From contig JAIRKU010000014.1 in the NCBI GenBank assembly GCA_031259945.1, forward strand, positions 1-64,000: DNA of 64,000 nucleotides, read 5' to 3'. A program made the position numbers and the translations under genes. The stretch is from Mycoplasmataceae bacterium. GTDB lineage: Bacteria; Bacillota_I; Bacilli_A; Mycoplasmatales; Mycoplasmoidaceae. Of this stretch, positions 3,563-16,572 are shown one piece after another. How positions within the stretch are numbered: position 1 is the stretch's first letter; each line of letters begins with the position of its first letter. The notes below the pieces were generated by a model. That model saw only the letters and a list, made by a program, of their open reading frames with translations, was not told the DNA's origin and ran no database searches.

Positions 3563-4570
3563 TTAATTCTTGTCTAAACGCTTGCAAAACGTTTTAGCGT
3601 GCATATTCATGAAGTACTCCAATTGATTATTTTGATTCTTGACCTGCATTCAATCTTTATTCAAAAACATGTTACCAGTTTTTATTAGTGTACCATTCAT
3701 AGAACAATTGGCTATGTCTGTAGCATCGACATTTCGAATTGACGATATTATGTAATGCGTTAAGACTGTTCTAGGTGTGTTACCTAAAGCTAAGGCTATC
3801 GCACTAATGTTAATATTAAGTTCTGACATCATTGTAGCTAAAGTTCTTCGAAGACTATGAGCAGATCAATAAAAATCAAAATTAGCCCAGCGATTGAACA
3901 TACGGAATCCCTCTTCAATCATTTTAGATTTCATCACAATTTTATGTTCAACAAAAAAACGATAGCATGCTAAAGGTACATAAATTTCACGCTGCTTACA
4001 TGTTTTTTCTGTATTGATAACAATCTCAGCACGAACAGATGAATCAATTTGTGAATTAGAAAAGCGATGTGCCGGACTTTTAGATCAATCGATATTACAA
4101 AATTCACCAATCCTCATTCCTGAACATAATAATGCTTCGAATGCATGATAGATTTTCAACCGACATAATTTAACATGCTCCACTTTATTTTTAATCATGT
4201 TTTTACAGTCTAGATTTATCCACTCATAAAATTTTTGTCTAATTAATGAAATTTGGTAATGATCTATACGTGTAGTAAATTTAGATATTTCACCAGGGCG
4301 AGATTCTATTCATTTATGGTTAAATTTATCATAACCATAAAGTTGATCAAAGGCTCAACGAAACATACCAGCTGCACCATGAGCTGAATTATTATTTTTT
4401 ATATTTCGAGTAACGCCATTAGCTCTTTTAATGTTTTGTCTGAATTTGTTAGTAAAACAATTTTTGTATTTTTTAATTAAGTAGTAATAACTAAGAGTTT
4501 TACGTTTTTTAGATATATCAAGTAGATGCTTAAATGTAATAATCGGTCTTATAAAATCTCCTTTACCCAT
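3563..4570 (-). CDS. int: Tyrosine recombinase (ICE integrase)
   Basis: This 335-aa protein cuts and rejoins DNA through a tyrosine nucleophile and is the likely integrase/excisionase of the element. The N-terminal half (about residues 1-125) looks like a SAM-like core-binding domain. The catalytic domain shows Arg153 in GMRIGEF (box I), His238-Ser-Leu-Arg241 in AHSLRRT (box II) and Tyr273 in THYI near the end. The start is the ATG at 4570, the first in frame, with UGA-Trp codons inside. Length and motifs suggest an active enzyme. It stands at the left edge of the element and reads outward. XerC/D-type housekeeping recombinases share these motifs, but its position beside conjugation genes favours an ICE integrase. 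Confidence 0.88.
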
Positions 4571-4754
4571 ATAATGGGTAAAATAAGATATACACTAAAA
4601 TTTGCCGAGTTTTATAATGTCAAAAATTACTATGTAATCTAAATTATTAGGTTTAAGAAATTATTAATGTGGTAGTGAATGGAGCTAAACTTTTCACATT
4701 ATCTATACTAATTTGAAGAATGAAAGAATACACTCCCGTTACGCAATCGTTAGT

Positions 4755-5075
4755 TCAATTTAACTCATTATTTTTAATAGATAACCATGATGGTAAAGTT
4801 TGATTGTTCGTCATTAAAATTGCGAAATTCGGATTTGGAACTTTCCCACTGTTTTTAGAAACACCATCTATTTCATAAATATATTGATCAGATGTACCGG
4901 CAGTTTTTGATTCGCCGATAACAAAATTAGGGCCGTCCGTTATTAAAATTTTATTAACTGTATAACTTGGTAAACAAGTAGTTAAAATAGCCGTTGTTGC
5001 TCCGCCCAAAATAAAAACACCTGCCATGCCTACAATTATTTTATTCCCTTTAATTCAAGTTCTTATTTTACCCAT
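4755..5075 (-). CDS. Small membrane-anchored protein
   Basis: A 106-aa protein preceded by GAGGTAATTT and the ATG at 5075, so the start is well supported. Residues about 10-35 (IIVGMAGVFILGGATTAILT) form one hydrophobic signal-anchor; the rest (TVNKILITDG...PSWLSIKNNELN) is polar, beta-rich and presumably outside the cell. No catalytic motif or lipobox is visible. It lies between the integrase and the stem-loop array and may be ICE cargo or a surface/exclusion protein, but that is a guess. Family not recognised. Confidence 0.6.
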
Positions 5076-5358
5076 AAATTACCTCAACACTTTAATTTTA
5101 CTATTATATCTTATTCAGATAAAAATCCTTTCTGTTCCTGCAGCTCATTTGATCTAGCTGCGTCTATCTATTTTGCTTGCCTAGAGAAATGTGTGACCGC
5201 AGAATTCGCTCTAGCGTTCTTTTGTATCCTTTTCTTTGTCGGATTTCTTTTAATTTGTATAGTCCACAAAATAATCGCTTTCACACTCCGCAAGTAATTC
5301 TAAGCCTCTCAACAGAACATTTATTACCAGCAGGTTTAAAACAAAATAGTTTTCTTTT
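5076..5358. other. Non-coding stretch before the stem-loop array
   Basis: No believable gene on either strand; the open frames here lack ribosome sites and overlap the palindromes further on. Base composition is somewhat richer in G and C than the flanks. Nothing else recognised. Confidence 0.4.
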
Positions 5359-6089
5359 GGGCGAAAGCCCTGAACGAACGATCACGAGACGAAGCGAGTG
5401 ATAAAATGAGTTGGAGGTGCGTTTGAAAAGAGTTAGACGCAGGCCTCCGAGGCGACTTTCTTTTGCAAAAAGAAACGGGCTGGCAAAAAGCAATTTATAG
5501 AAATTGCGCCGGGCGAAATTTACTTCCAATTGCAACCCTACCATTAAAATTTCGCCTAATGCATAAAAAGGATTTATTAAGCATTAATAAATCTCCCATT
5601 TTAAATCAAAAAGAAGTCGGCAAATTTGCCGTGCACTTCTTTTTTTGTGAACGCAGTGGATTTTTCTTTAAAACCAAAAGAAGCCGACAATATTTGTCGG
5701 GCGCTTCTTTTGTGAGTAAAACGAATTTTCTTATACTCCCACCGCGAAGATTCGACGCGGTCGGCGGTATTACGACACCACTTTATGAAATAAATTAGTG
5801 GAAGTATGTCCCAATTGACTTGGGACACCGCCGAAATCTGATTGCGTCTTATCCGAAGTTAGCAATCAGATTTGGGTTTGAATGACACCACCCTTAATTT
5901 ATTAATGGGTTTTAATTTATTAAAATGGGAGAGAATAGTTTCCGGTGCTTTCGGCAGCGGAAACTATTCTCTCCCATGGTGTCATTGTTAAAACTTAAAA
6001 TTTTCTATGAAAATTTTAACATATTAAAAATTGAATGTCAAGCAGTCGAATTTAATGATGTTAAATACTGCAGTAGTCAACTGCAGTAT
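5359..6089. repeat. Array of about a dozen tandem stem-loops (candidate oriT/origin)
   Basis: Perfect or near-perfect inverted repeats follow one another: 5359-5370; 5443-5453; 5491-5506; 5512-5521 with 5547-5556; 5571-5580 with 5584-5593 (3-nt loop); 5608-5640 around the 14-bp palindrome 5618-5631; 5676-5690 with 5694-5711; 5741-5746 with 5756-5761; 5808-5814 with 5820-5826; 5834-5845 with 5862-5873 (12 bp); 5925-5944 with 5958-5977 (20 bp), enclosed by 5881-5890 with 5977-5986; 5995-6005 with 6009-6019; and 6065-6073 with 6081-6089. No frame inside looks like a gene. It sits directly before the replication-relaxation-like gene. I infer a transfer or replication origin, recombination site, or structured RNA. 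Confidence 0.8.
6065..6089 (+). promoter_or_regulatory. Inverted repeat just before the relaxation-like gene
   Basis: ATACTGCAG, 7 nt, CTGCAGTAT ends 9 bases before the proposed GTG start at 6099. It could be an operator for the gene, a protein-binding site of an origin, or the last hairpin of the array. No clear -35/-10 pair is seen next to it. Confidence 0.45.
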
Positions 6090-6098
6090 AATTCAATA

Positions 6099-6881
6099 GT
6101 GAAAAAGAAAGAAATAGTCAGCAAATTACTCCAAAAACCAACAGTTAAAAAGTTGTTGGTTACATTGATTAAATGAGGTAATTTAACACAAGAACAAATG
6201 GCTAAATTATGTCGTTTAAAATGGAGACAAACCATAACTTTATTGCATCAATTGGACGCAAGGCTATATGAGTCAAATGACAAAGGGTTAAATTTAGTTG
6301 TTTGGAAGAAATATCCTTTCAGCAGCAAAAGATTATATAGTGCCACTGGTTATGCGCAAAGAAGGTTAGGCATTACCAAAGAAAAAACAATTGGCGAGCA
6401 GACAAAGCTAGCCCCTAGGTATGAGACCAGATTTAATTTCTACGAAGTAGAACATACAGACTGATGTATTAAAGCTTTACTAAAAGAATTTGGCGACCGA
6501 CCAATTGATGTGAAAAGCTACTGAACAGCTAGGAATGTTGGTTACATGTGGTTTGATATTTTTAAAGAAATTAAAGACATCTGGTTTAGTGGTGTTGAAG
6601 AACGGAAACCAGATTTACTTGTTTGGGACGAGACAATTAAAGGCTGAATCTGTATCGAAGTGGAAAACACACCTAAATCCGATAAACGAATGCGAATTAT
6701 CCTACGTAGCCTTTTTGCGTTAGGTAATTACGCTAAGCGTTTTAAAAAGGTAAAAATCTACGCTAATGAAAAACTACCAGTTTATAACAAATGAAAAAAT
6801 TTATTGCCATATGTTGAAACTGGTGACATTCCAGAACAAATAGAAATTTTAAAACTAAATGAATCGTTAGAAAAATATTAA
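6099..6881 (+). CDS. Replication-relaxation-like DNA-processing protein
   Basis: A 260-aa basic protein. The N-terminal part (LVTLIKWGNLTQEQMAKLCR) looks like a winged helix. The C-terminal part has PD (D172), then CIEVENTPKS with E187, E189 and K193, a PD-(D/E)xE arrangement found in the nuclease-like fold of Replic_Relax (MobC-like) proteins of conjugative elements. It may nick, relax or mark the neighbouring stem-loop DNA, or serve as an accessory factor. It is the only ICE gene seen on the plus strand, so it is read away from the array. The start is uncertain: GTG 6099 lacks a clear Shine-Dalgarno site. Four UGA-Trp codons hide it from standard-code searches. No HUH relaxase motif is seen. 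Confidence 0.6.
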
Positions 6882-6924: not shown

Positions 6925-7338
6925 TTACTCATCCTGCAAAATGGTATCGACCAGACGTTTAACAATGGCCCCGACAGTCGAATTATGATCACTCGCAATC
7001 TTTTGTAGCTTATGGTAATCAGATATTTTCAAGCTACAAGCGACCGTTTTATATTCTTCCTGACGCTGTTTCGGTTTTAGACCATTTAATAATTTAGACT
7101 TGTCTAATAAGTTATTATGATTTTTTGCAACAACTTTATTAACATTTTTATTAATACTAGTATTAGATTGGTTATTAATCTTCCACTCCATATCTTTTCA
7201 TGGAACTTTTCTCTTCGTTTCCTTTCCGTTAGATTCTTTTGTTTTACGATAGAATTCGCCATTCTTTTCAATTAATGTTTGGCCAATAATTTTTTCATAG
7301 CTTGTTTTAATTTGTTTTTGTTTTTCAGTTAATGTCAT
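6925..7338 (-). CDS. Putative ribbon-helix-helix DNA-binding protein
   Basis: 137 aa; the start is ATG 7338 behind AGAGGT. The N-terminal 90 residues are charged and Lys-rich; the C-terminus (VACSLKISDYHKLQKIASDH, then STVGAIVKRLVDTILQ) has the strand-helix-helix pattern of RHH (CopG/Arc) proteins. Palindromic TAATAC/GTATTA sites occur before it (7396-7410, 7443-7457), inside it (7152-7165) and after it (6891-6905). Such proteins usually bind such sites to repress their own gene or to control copy number or partition. This suggests a regulator or partition protein for the ICE. No ParA partner is encoded in the element. Confidence 0.55.
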
Positions 7339-7395
7339 AATACCTCTGTAACAATATATTAACATATTTATTAACATTTTATTAACTTTTTTTAT

Positions 7396-8016: not shown

Positions 8017-8286
8017 TTAGAACACTTGCATCCTTTCTCCAACTAAGCATAGCTTATTTTCGATAGTAGCAATGCGCCCTTTGACACCGACGATAGCACC
8101 GTGATTAATTTGTTTCATTTCTGACGCAAATGTTTCACGATTAATTGATACCGGCACAAGGTCGTATCAATTGTCATCTGGATTATTTGTCATAGTCTTT
8201 TCGACTTTGATATTGATAATAGCATCATTTGATTTTGGTAATTTAGTTACCTGGTCAACGACACCAATAACTGCTACGAAATTCAT
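8017..8286 (-). CDS. ssb: SSB-like single-strand DNA-binding protein
   Basis: 89 aa, one OB-fold. It shows the SSB pattern: MNFVAVIGVVDQV at the start, a middle strand WYDLVPVSINRETF, then GAIVGVKGRIATIENKLCLV (the kGxxVxVxGr loop). It has no acidic C-terminal tail, so it probably cannot recruit partners as chromosomal SSB does. The start ATG 8286 follows GGAGG and overlaps the end of the upstream gene, so the two are likely co-translated. In a conjugative element it would coat transferred or replicating single strands. Confidence 0.65.
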
Positions 8287-8287
8287 A

Positions 8288-8593
8288 CTAACACGCCTCC
8301 AAGTTTGTCTTATATGCATAATCATATGCATTTTCTAAACATACTGAGTTGCCATCAATGACGAATTCGTCTGCCGCCGGATCATAAAAAAGTTTTTCGA
8401 ATCAACCGTATCAGGCGTACTGACCTAAATATGCTTTTTTACGAGCTTTGAATTCAGGTTCACTAACTAACGTGATGTTGCCACGGAAGAAGTGAATTAG
8501 TTTCGGAACTCTTTGCAATCTGCATTCACTTTTCAAAGAACTAGCTGTTGACTTATTTTTTATCGAAGTCTCGATATTGTTTAAAGTATTCAT
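8288..8593 (-). CDS. Unknown ICE protein, 101 aa
   Basis: Starts at ATG 8593 behind GGAGGT and ends two bases before the ssb-like start. The N-terminal half is basic and helical; the C-terminal half is acidic with aromatics (WFEKLFYDPAADEFVIDGNS). No membrane segment and no motif I recognise. Position in front of ssb suggests a role in DNA handling or control, but nothing in the sequence proves it. Confidence 0.6.
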
Positions 8594-8760: not shown

Positions 8761-9072
8761 CTATGTTTTGCTTGAATACTTAAAAATTTCTTTATGAACA
8801 CCAGTTCTCAATAGTCTCAAATTATGTTTTTCTGGTTTGTAAACTAAAACTCAATTATCATCAATTTCAACAATATGACAATCTCTCAAACCTTTACCTT
8901 TAAGTTCTTTGTATTTATCCAAAGGATGATCTTTATATTTAGGTTGAAGCTTGTGACCTTCTTTCAAAATACTAATCACATGATTCAATTTTTCTAAACC
9001 ATATAAACCAAATATTCTTTTACAAGTCGATAAATCTTCCGGAAATTGAGAACTAAAGATTATTTTTTTCAT
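8761..9072 (-). CDS. RelE/YafQ-type mRNA interferase toxin
   Basis: 103 aa. The C-terminal half, GLRDCHIVEIDDNWVLVYKP then LRLLRTGVHKEIF, matches the YafQ subgroup of RelE toxins (RDCHIxPDWLLIY...LxLxRTGxHSDLF), which cut mRNA on the ribosome. The usual C-terminal catalytic His is present in RTGVH. The start overlaps the end of the antitoxin gene by 20 bp, so translation is coupled. It probably stabilises the ICE in the cell. The gene looks complete. Confidence 0.8.
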
Positions 9073-9500: not shown

Positions 9501-11699
9501 CTAATTGACACTCACATTTGTTCATTCTTTATATAGATTTTCAATGCAAGTATTTTTGTCTAGCATAAAATCGTTTGGCATGTTTTCAAAAGTTTTACCT
9601 TCTTTTTGCAATTTATCATTTCATTTATTTTTTCTGAATACTTCGAATTCAGCGTCAGACATATTCTCGATTTTGATAATTAGATTAACATCGAATGGTG
9701 ATTTGGTTGGTTTCTTATCAGGATTATTTTTTAATAGGTTAGCTTTCTTGGTTTCGAATTCAACGATACTATCCATAATATTGTCAACTTGTAGGTTGGC
9801 ATGGATGTCATCCATTTCAATTATTTTGTATTCGGGTCAATTGTTAACTAACTGTTGTGCTAATGTACTAAACATTACTTGCCCTTTAAGTAACTTACGG
9901 ATGTCGTTAGGGTGCCAGATAAATTCTTCATCGACACGTAACGAACCAGCACCAGAGTGTGATATATTGCCGTCAGCATCGACAACTGTTTGGTCAGTAG
10001 GCATTAAGTGTTTGCGTGTGCCGTGGATAGCAGAGATAGCTTCGATTGTTTCTTTGTCCCGCAATCGTGAAATGAAGAATGTGCTGCAATTATTAATAAT
10101 TGTATTTAGCAGACCATGTTTATTATCTTTTTCCACGCCAGCCTTCTCTTGAATACCAAAAGCTAAAGTAATGTTCTTAGAACGGAACTGTTGCGACATT
10201 TCGCTCACATGGTCTTGATCCTGTAATATCGAAGGCGCTTCATCGATAATTAAAACCATTTTTTTCTTATCAATGTTACGCTGCATTTCATTGTAATTAG
10301 CCAATTGTTCTATGTCATAAAGTAAAATTTTTTCAATCATTTTGTTAGTGATGTTTGGTGCGAACTGAAATAATAAAATTTGGCCAGATGGATTTACACG
10401 CATTAAATCTTTAACGGATAACCCGCTAGATGAAATGACATCTTTAGTGTTGGTATATAGTTCTTCGAAGTCGTTATGCAAGATAGTTAATTGACTTTGG
10501 TTTTGTTCAGTCAGTTTATTAAATTTGCGATATAGATCGCCAGCTGGCGTATTTTTATAAATAATTTTCTTTTTTCTTCGAGCTACGACGCCTTCATCAT
10601 CTTTCACCACTTCCCCATCGATAGTTTCACTATCAGCACCAGCCTTAGATAAGCATTTTACAATCGTTTCTTGAACGGTAAATTTAGCTAAATTCTCTAA
10701 TGAGATACCGCCGATTGACGGGAACATTAAGAAAAAGTCGACTAACATAGTTACTCACGCTCTGGTTTCACCAGCATAAATATTGGTAGTGGCTGATCTT
10801 TTTTTCAGAGAGTAATCAAAGATTTCCGAGATCATATCGATTTGTTCGATGCGAGTTTTTTGAGAGAATGGATTGTATTTAGTTTTATGTGTGCCGGTTA
10901 AATTTCAAGCTTTGAACTGCGCATTAAACAAATTAGCGACGCGTTTGAAGAGCTCTTCGAGTTTACCGTCAGCCTTTCCGTCCAAAACGCAGATTGGATA
11001 CTTGTTGTAAGCGGCCGCAAAGCATAGCTTTAATAAGTTGTAAGTCTTGCCAAACCCAGACGCCCCAATAAATAAAAAGTGCATGTCTCAAATATTAATC
11101 GGTACCATAATTTCTTTAGCACGATTAACGATGATGCCTTTTTTTCATGATATTGGGTTTAGTGTTTTTGATATTTTATCAAAACGTTCATCTTCGATTT
11201 TAGCTCAAACTTTGTAGCCAGTGATATTCCCAAAAAAATCTAAAAATGGATGATTGTGAAGTTTAGGAACCTTTTGTTCTGCTAAATCTGCAGCAATTCT
11301 TTTTTGATCAAGAATATTAGATTTATAAATACGTGTATTTAAACGTTCTTGATAAAGAATTACAAATATTCATAAAACAACTACACCAGTAAGAAACCAA
11401 AGAAGAATTCAACGAAGTCACATGTGAATTGTTGTTACTAAAATTATTTCCAAAATAAATATGCCAAAAATTATCAATAGCCATTTAAGCTTGTTTTCTT
11501 TAGCACGTTTTTTATTTTTTTTCTCTTGTAACCATTTCTTTTGCTGTTTTATATAAATATGGTTGCACATAATTACAATCAAAGCTAAAGGGAAAACAAG
11601 ATAAAATAAAACCCTTACAATCACATTGTAATTAAATATAGGTTCCACTCCAGATGTAGCGGTACCTATCGATTGACTTTTTACATTTTTACTAGACAT
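9501..11699 (-). CDS. traG: VirD4/TraG-type coupling protein (T4SS)
   Basis: 732 aa. The N-terminal 120 residues carry hydrophobic helices (VLFYLVFPLALIVIMC, LKWLLIIFGIFILEIILV, WILLWFLTGVVVLWIF) that anchor it in the membrane. The ATPase domain has Walker A GASGFGKT near residue 212 and Walker B VLIIDEAP near 485. Coupling proteins bring the DNA-protein substrate to the conjugation channel and pump DNA. Mollicute ICEs carry a homologue called TraG (CDS5). The start is ATG 11699, just after the 74-aa gene. The reading frame is intact with many UGA-Trp codons. Confidence 0.88.
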
Positions 11700-13794: not shown

Positions 13795-16572
13795 TTAAAC
13801 CCCTTCGCTTTTTACATCATCAAAAAATTGTCATCAATGACTAACGTCATTACTTAGTCTATAGCGGTCTCATGCGCTCATGACCGTTAAGCATTCACCT
13901 TTTTTAGCTCTAGCAACAAATTTATGTTCGACATCACTTAAAGGTTTACCAGATGCTGCAAGCATTTCTGATAATTTGTTGATGTCATTTTCGGGAGATT
14001 TGAAATAAAAACCATATTGAGCTAATTCGAAAATTTCTTTATATTCAAGCGAAGCCTCGCCTTGCACCACACCTAGACCTTGATCTACTAAAATGGCACC
14101 ACCGTTGTGGCTCCGACAAATACGTACAAACTTGTTAAGTATTTGCATCACGCCAGGGATATGACGCACTGTGTGAAATTCATCGATGTACTGGGCGAAC
14201 TTACAGCCAGATGATTTATTTGTGATCATAATTTCAATTCCTACTTGAATTAAAAACATTAAAAATGCAGCAAAAATATTAAGTGTTGTTCTAGTGATAT
14301 TAGAAATGTCGATTGTAAATCAGCGATTTTCAGTTCAGTCAACATTACTATGAACGTTGAATAAATAACCATAGGTACTATCTTGATTGTATTGTTCTAG
14401 TAAAATGGCCAATTTCGCCATTGCTTTTTTATTTTCATTATTTTCTCGCGACATTTTCAAAGCTATTTCATAAAAGTTCTGCGTCATCGGCATTTTGTTT
14501 TTAGACACGCTCTTAAAATCCGTACTGCTCTTAAATTTACATGGGCCGTTCTTATCTTCATAAACGTATTTTTGAACTTTACGTCATGCAGCCATAATTT
14601 CTTCTTCGTCGGCTTTGCCTTTTAAATTTAATAGCGCAGCAATAATGCCGTCGTTTTTAATATAAGTTTTATCTAATGGCGATAGCGCTACTTCTTCGCC
14701 ACGATCATTAGTATCGTTAGGAACTGTTAATACATCCCAGATGTTTAATGTTTTATTGCCTTTGTCTCTAGAATTCTTTCGGCCCAAAATGATGTTAGCA
14801 CCGCCAAGACGTTGTGTCATTTCATCATAATCAGGTTTTGGATCGATACAAAAAATATAATGTCCGTCAAAATAATCTTGAATCATGTCACGTTTGACTG
14901 TTCAAGTTTTACCAGCACCAGTGAATGCCAATAAAATTCGATTGAATGAATTATATTGATCATTGATTTGTCAATAATTTTCAAATATTGGTTTTTTAGT
15001 GACATGCATACCTGTCTGATCGATCACGTTGCCTTTGTATCAAGAATTATTCCCGCCGATATTTACACTATTGACAAATGGATAACCAAGGCCCAAGCTT
15101 GTGTTTAAAACGTGAATTACATTATCTTTTACAATCTCCATTGGGAGTGACCGTGCATTTACTTTTTTAGTTCGTTTAAATGAATTTTTAAATAATTCTC
15201 AGTAGCTTTTTCGAAATTGTAAAGATGGTAGTTCATAACAGCGCGTGTTTGTGAACGCATCCATCTGATAATAATTTAAATCGTTGACTATGAATCCGCG
15301 ATTGTGATCATAAATTTTTTGATCAAAATCATGCATTTTTTGCATTATGTCTTTACGTGTGTTAGCTTTAAATATTACATATATGCATAACTCTTTTAAA
15401 TCATAAATATGACTCGCTTGAGCAATTTGGTCTGAAATAAATTTAACTTGCTCATCGACTTTTTGGATTTGAGCACGTTGCATATCGCTTGCGCGTCTTT
15501 TGTATCATTTTGATGTAGTCATTCTCGAAACAGAGTTTTGCAATGAATACATAATATTTTGTGTTGTGGAACGATTAAGGTACTTAGTAGATGTGTAAAT
15601 GGTGTAACTAGTGTCGTTAAATAAATCCCGTAAATATTCCCGTCTAGCAATGTTAGGTAACCCATTGATACATTTGAACCCTATTAGTTCAGAAGTTTTG
15701 TCTTCTCGATACAAACGAAGATAGTTCTTATAGGCCTTAATGTGCTTTACACCGACCTTATTTGGCGATTTTACATCGACGGTATCCTTTGGTCATAGTT
15801 CATTTAAAATTTGCGAAATTTCGCTTTTATTCGCTTCTGTTAATTCGATTTTAGATTCTTCGACTAGTGATTGTAATGTTTGAAAGCGTTTTTCATTTTC
15901 CTCAATAGTGTTACCGTTTAAAACTAAAAAATATGCTTGTTGTCTATACGATGTCTTTTTATTCATCTGCTCGATTTTGGCATCGTATTGATTTTGTAAC
16001 CATTTGATATCGTCATTAGTTTTTTTTAGTTTGTATTCTTTCTTAGCGATTTGATAAAGAACACCAGTGCTGATAATATCGAAATCTGATTGATGACCTC
16101 AAAAATTACCGCACTGTTCGAGAATTTGATTTTTAATGGCGTTACTAGAAAGGCTAAGATCATATCCATTAATTCTATAGAATGAAATATATCCATCACG
16201 TTCTTCGTTTTTGTAACGTACATGGTTATTTTTAATCTCTTTAAATCGATAATAAGCCTTGATTTCTTCTTCGCTTCAATTCTTTTTGGCTAAAAATTGC
16301 TTGATAAATCAACGACGGATACGTGTACGTAATTTACCAGTTTCTTTATTTTGAATAAAACAAAGGCCCGCGGATATTAATAAATATGCGCCAAAAATTA
16401 ATCCCATCGCTAAATTTCACCCAACTGTAAAACCGATGATCACCACTGGTGCTACCAAAATAAAGAAAAGATATAAATCTCTTAAATCTAATCCCATTTT
16501 GCGTATTTCACGAATGGATTCTAAATTAATTTCTTCTTTTTGAATTTCGTTATTTCGTTCTACTTCGTACAT
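13795..16572 (-). CDS. virB4: VirB4-type conjugation ATPase
   Basis: 925 aa. The N-terminus has two membrane helices (LYLFFILVAPVVIIGF; WNLAMGLIFGAYLLISAG), then a coiled-coil middle and a C-terminal RecA-like ATPase with Walker A AFTGAGKT near residue 550 and the Walker B region FAQYIDEFH near 795. VirB4 energises assembly of the secretion channel and DNA transfer. It corresponds to the TraE/Mbov_0397 ATPase of mycoplasma ICEs. Intact in code 4 with many UGA-Trp codons. Gap to the upstream membrane protein is 9 bp. Confidence 0.88.

Follow-up and report, generated by a model that had tools for sequence, protein, structure and literature searches.

A multi-branched array of hairpins at positions 5359–6089 of the DNA analysed here (the window, a 64,000-nucleotide stretch from a Mycoplasmataceae bacterium) lies inside a conjugative-type element and, judged by comparison with its relatives, forms a conserved cis-acting module that is maintained by shape. 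The most likely role of this region is in DNA processing for transfer or replication. The genome from which the window comes is an 848-kb draft of a gut mycoplasma relative; homologous regions were found by DNA, pattern and protein searches in three further genomes of the genus (G027:C28, G033:C3 and G006:C21), and the family so far comprises these four metagenome-assembled genomes, all draft assemblies. For this family of ICEs, a covarying fold of 0.4–0.7 kb together with one candidate nuclease gives a concrete candidate for the site and for the enzyme.

Folding strength and hairpin density

The cluster of stem-loops that had been predicted for this region was confirmed by an inverted-repeat search of 5000–6200, which returned 33 pairs. 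Among these are 24-nt arms at 5925–5948/5954–5977 (96% complementary), perfect 10-bp arms at 6065–6074/6080–6089, and twin AAGAAG hairpins at 5608–5644 and 5675–5712. They exceed chance: in the best 400 nt of the region 26% of the sequence lies in perfect stems of at least 9 bp, against 12.5% in the runner-up 400 nt of the 64 kb, and 5359–6089 is the hairpin-densest stretch of the whole window. Folding against shuffled controls had been set beforehand as the test, and the shuffles were clearly worse. With RNA energies the minimum free energy is −256 kcal/mol, against a mean of −171 for dinucleotide-preserving shuffles (z −13.2 on the plus strand, −12.9 on the minus strand); with single-stranded DNA energies z is larger still (−15.2 and −15.6), and 0 of 20 shuffles folded as well. 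Within the region, 5901–6050 has the lowest z among 639 tiled 150-nt stretches of the window. Stem-loops that fold as single strands, as sought in an sso, are thus present by DNA-energy folding, as is the non-coding inverted-repeat region inside a conjugative-type element that is sought in an oriT.

Two mechanical open reading frames cross the region (5406–5798, plus strand; 5164–5544, minus strand), and nothing supports either as a gene. The original prediction of a gene-free stretch between the integrase and the next gene holds for the region itself, although a small Ig-like-domain gene intervenes on the integrase side. The parts of the region are listed below, with the strand where one applies and the basis of each assignment in brackets.

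5350..5600: 5' part, less conserved (folds; partial alignment with G027)
5359-5370: hairpin GGGC-GAAA-GCCC, in the 5' part (fold)
5411-5450: hairpin, in the 5' part (fold)
5457-5475: hairpin TTTCTTTT/AAAAGAAA, in the 5' part (fold)
5511-5557 and 5570-5594: two hairpins, in the 5' part (folds)
5608..5644: H-A copy 1, an AAGAAG stem whose 3' arm carries a 3-nt bulge (inverted repeat; alignment A4)
5675..5712: H-A copy 2, shared with G027 and G006, resembling a terminator on either strand (alignment A4)
5714..5735, plus strand: unpaired conserved linker GAGTNNAACGANTTTT(N)CTTATA, exact in the window, G027 and G006; overlapped by a weak promoter-like TTGTGA-16-TATACT (5710-5737)
5741..5761: hairpin H-B, ACCGCG/CGCGGT; ACCGTG/CACGGT in G006 (fold, comparison)
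5762..5833: helix H-C, CGGCGGT/ACCGCCG around TGTCCCAA/TTGGGACA, closing helix identical in G027 (fold)
5834..5873: hairpin H-D, 12 bp, found with other sequences in G027, G033 and G006 (fold)
5881..5986: closing helix P1 (5881-5890/5977-5986), enclosing H1 (5890-5910), a linker and H2 (fold)
5908..5925, plus strand: H1-H2 linker GGTTTTAATTTATTAAAA, identical in the window, G027 and G033 (sequence comparison)
5925..5977: long hairpin H2, 24 bp in the window; the G033 and G006 stems have 22-23 bp and a different sequence (inverted repeat, fold)
5995..6019: AT-rich hairpin TTAAAATTTTC/GAAAATTTTAA, kept in G027 (inverted repeat)
6013..6041, minus strand: promoter TTGACA-17-TAAAAT, its second hexamer preceded by TG, directed into the fold, same in G027 (promoter scan)
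6065..6089: palindrome ATACTGCAGT-AGTCA-ACTGCAGTAT before gene 6099-6881 (inverted repeat)

Conservation of the fold in related elements

All four elements follow a common plan, in which a bulged AAGAAG-type hairpin is followed by a linker, by small hairpins and by a closing helix around a hairpin of 22–24 bp. The stems are often wholly different in sequence from one element to another, with pairing retained, and the length enclosed by P1 is 84–92 nt in all four. A AAAGCGAC hairpin occupies the place of H-A in G033, some of H-B to H-D are not recognisable in every element, and G006 lacks both the linker GGTTTTAATTTATTAAAA and H1. Stem density in the best 400 nt is 0.26, 0.30, 0.165 and 0.34 across the four loci, and the region is the densest place in each.

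Retention of the stems through changes on both arms, the second test set beforehand, is seen in the related elements. In alignment A6 (three sequences), 98.2% of cells pair, a percentage inflated by the derivation of the structure from these same sequences. Both sides have changed in 16 of the 38 pairs, a count of sequences rather than of independent events that comes mostly from G033, and one-sided change is seen in one pair only. Shuffled alignments average 5.6 double changes (0 of 500 reach 16), and slid structures give 0–2. The signal is weaker in the H-A alignment A4 (four sequences), with three double-change pairs and 44 of 500 shuffles as high. Compensatory changes in a conserved structure are what a structured RNA would be recognised by, and folded DNA predicts the same. 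H-A occurs as a tandem pair in the window (67 nt apart) but only once each in G027 and G006; compensating changes distinguish the two window copies.

The fold lies just upstream of the same gene in the window, G027 and G033, the three closest elements, even as the order of the remaining genes differs between the window and G033. In G006 it has the integrase on one side and a similar-looking protein on the other, and the fold points the other way with respect to the closest regulator-like gene. The palindrome at 6065–6089 may be the operator of gene 6099–6881; its place is taken by a different palindrome in G033, and none is evident in G027.

The neighbouring protein and the element

The genes around the region are those of a conjugative-type element.

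3563..4570, minus strand: tyrosine integrase of the element (PF00589)
4653-5075: small Ig-like-domain gene, between the integrase and the region
6099..6881, plus strand: relaxase-like candidate of ~260 aa (genetic code 4), with HTH and a PD-(D/E)XK-like core, PD171...E186xE188
6925..7377, minus strand: small protein with a weak RHH/CopG-like match (PF16777, E 0.0017), a possible relaxosome accessory
8017..8331, minus strand: protein with a weak single-strand-binding-like match (PF00436, E 0.03)
8761-9072: YafQ-family toxin gene (PF15738, E 1.6e-17)
9501..11699, minus strand: TraG/VirD4-like coupling ATPase (PF12696)
13795..16572, minus strand: VirB4-like ATPase of mycoplasma-ICE type (NF045975)

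The match of the VirB4 to the NCBI model for ATPases of mycoplasma ICEs falls short of the equivalog cut-off, and a helicase-loader-like ATPase is also encoded in the element, to the right of the region. At G006:C21:1000-2778, two overlapping frames, with no Pfam match, jointly resemble a coupling-type ATPase whose motifs (Walker-like GKTNTL, NGKGD) are split between them.

UGA encodes tryptophan in this genome, and the gene at 6099–6881 is read accordingly. Four family members of its product align, with 47–73% identity to the window protein, and D171, E186 and E188 of the PD...ExE motif are invariant among the aligned members. HTH matches at the N-terminus are weak, and the G033 member has a weak match (E 6e-4) to PF18743, a family of restriction endonucleases, that does not reach the curated cut-off. 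A model of the C-terminal core (pLDDT 61) gave mostly restriction and repair nucleases as structural matches, the best with a Z of 7.0 that alone is not significant; a full-length AlphaFold model was discarded (pLDDT 47).

The description of this neighbour as replication-relaxation-like found no backing, as it has no significant profile match to Pfam Replic_Relax (PF13814) in either direction. A comparison by hhalign with one PF13814 protein gave 0.1%, and sequence searches with the window protein reach no relaxase family. MOBC relaxases, the Replic_Relax proteins, are described as restriction-endonuclease-type (PMC11104534), and a possible likeness lies in the HTH with a putative restriction-nuclease-like core and in a MAFFT alignment in which the G006 neighbour has its D, E and E in register with those of one true PF13814 protein, although profile comparison gives this no support. 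The window protein may possibly work like MOBC without being a MOBC relaxase. Homology of the G006 neighbour with the window protein was likewise unsupported by profile comparison.

The genome has a second, 73%-identical copy of the gene, which adjoins a cluster of tRNA genes (G000:C22:2753-3496). This copy looks like an element remnant.

A probable DNA-processing site, or possibly a structured RNA

The explanation we place first, at roughly even chances, is that the region is a cis-acting DNA-processing site in which a transfer origin is joined by hairpins acting as single strand. After excision, the HTH/nuclease-like neighbour would bind and nick the region, and the nicked strand would be exported by the VirB4/TraG secretion system; once free, it could form the P1/H1/H2 junction and the AAGAAG hairpins with their bulges, and the folded hairpins may serve in recognition, strand re-joining and second-strand priming. 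In this scheme we infer the nicking, the relaxase identity of the neighbour and the role of every single hairpin.

Support for an origin comes from the conservation of the fold next to the gene of a nuclease-like, DNA-binding protein within a conjugative element. An origin is also favoured by the extreme folding on both strands, with the larger z for DNA energies; by the covariation in A6, well above that in shuffles; by the place of the fold directly before the same gene in three elements despite the different gene order of the window and G033; by the HTH and PD...ExE of the neighbour and the nuclease matches of its core model; by the TraG and mycoplasma-ICE-type VirB4 of the element; and by the C22 paralogue, which has no structured region beside it in a genome with a single VirB4. 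The failure of the neighbour to reach any relaxase family by sequence weakens the case, as do the lack of detectable homology of the G006 neighbour, the size of the minimal SGI1 oriT, only 125 bp (PMC6414798), and the presence of a good promoter reading through the fold, which an origin does not need. The transfer or replication origin put forward in the original prediction is partly supported, through the conserved fold and its setting, and a structured RNA is still a serious rival.

Such a non-coding RNA, of ~335–400 nt, would run leftward from the promoter at 6041–6013 and end at the AAGAAG hairpins of H-A; we hold it possible, at clearly less than even chances. The promoter matches at 11 of 12 positions in addition to its TG, is conserved in G027, and is one of only five sites of at least 11/12 on both strands of the 64 kb; it is not clear in G033 and G006, where matches are only at chance level. 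The AAGAAG hairpins are terminator-like in both directions, including that of the minus strand, for which they stand at the far end of the putative transcript. An RNA of this kind may be a counter-transcript that controls the neighbouring gene, aid mobilization or act otherwise; in SGI1, the sgm-sRNA encoded beside oriT is required for transfer (PMC9299015) and provides a model for the putative transcript here. At the gathering score, no Rfam family was found for the region, the matches all being sub-threshold.

Pairing type speaks rather for DNA. In the core of the region, G-U pairs make up 0.9–9.6% (plus strand) and 0.9–4.5% (minus strand), and z lies between about −11 and −14.5 whichever strand is folded, whereas the RNase P RNAs and tmRNAs of these genomes (six sequences) have 8–13% G-U and sense-strand z of −1 to −5.6; the top value of 9.6% is that of G033 on the plus strand, and the contrast is a trend and not a clean separation. 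Scarce G-U pairs and similar z on both strands would be expected if pairing is kept at the DNA level, and on this account favour an origin. Near-perfect, strand-symmetric pairing fits DNA, with RNA the less probable reading, and template-switch mutation or selection for very stable RNA hairpins could also lead to low G-U. Base composition at unpaired positions was tried as a strand test and did not discriminate, since the control RNAs are equally unbiased.

The hairpins are unlikely to be a single-strand (sso-type) or rolling-circle origin by which the excised circle is replicated and maintained while transfer begins at another place. In pBAA1 the stem-loops of an sso have been shown to matter for its function at least as much as the sequence, and the same was found in ICEBs1 (PMC4595007); the helicase-loader-like ATPase and the weakly SSB-like protein of the element would suit such an origin. 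Against it, no Rep gene was recognised in the element, and the fixed neighbour of the fold is a nuclease-like protein. Hairpins that resemble terminators both ways, upstream of a gene in three elements, could also form a leader, attenuator or terminator cluster that separates or regulates adjacent operons, which we regard as very improbable given the reversed orientation of the G006 fold and a 24-bp hairpin inside a closing helix, more than a terminator needs. Least credible of all is the integrase attachment platform that had also been suggested, as the integrase gene lies within ~0.8 kb of the region in the window, G027 and G006 but in G033 is separated from it by ~2.7 kb that hold other genes, and no direct repeats marking the element ends were found.

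Comparison with known systems

Like the region described here, the oriT of SGI1 (MpsA/MpsB; PMC6414798) is a non-coding inverted-repeat array of an integrated element that adjoins mobilization genes, putative ones in the present case, and it is served by an atypical relaxase, for which there is here a candidate only. The SGI1 relaxase candidate is tyrosine-recombinase-like, in contrast to the restriction-nuclease-like protein here, and its minimal oriT of 125 bp holds three long repeats (PMC6414798), compared with ~700 bp and about a dozen helices. The sso1 of ICEBs1 shares with the region ICE stem-loops whose function rests largely on structure, but has three of them (PMC4595007). Closest in host is ICEA of M. 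agalactiae, a mollicute ICE with VirB4/TraG-type machinery, for which the parts of the report consulted suspect an oriT in non-coding regions that cannot be disrupted without loss of transfer (PMC6030558). One hairpin motif is noted there, single, short and in a Mutator-like element, and those parts describe no comparable array (PMC6030558).

We tentatively suggest a new transfer module in mollicute elements, made of a long multi-branched fold conserved in shape and a previously unclassified relaxase of restriction-nuclease type, possibly with an RNA of ~350 nt from the same stretch. If true, this would be an origin conserved by shape, with its stem sequences replaced.

Searches outside the four elements

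Plasmids and phages, searched by protein and DNA, gave no convincing relatives outside the genus (phage DNA matches were short, with E of 0.02–0.06), and viral contigs, searched by protein, by profile and with two DNA patterns, gave nothing convincing. Matches to model R2 outside the window, G027 and G006 reach at most 32 bits, compared with 74–92; the three that were inspected are isolated hairpins or terminators that do not lie in hairpin-dense DNA. Occurrences of GGTTTTAATTTATTAAAA elsewhere in the order stand in surrounding sequence without such a fold. VirB4 relatives at 32–35% identity were inspected at two loci (G012:C2 and G002:C37, both at about 33%), lie there among housekeeping genes, and were dropped as ICE comparisons; the two loci give the impression of a T4SS-like ATPase that has settled permanently in the chromosome of two other members of the genus.
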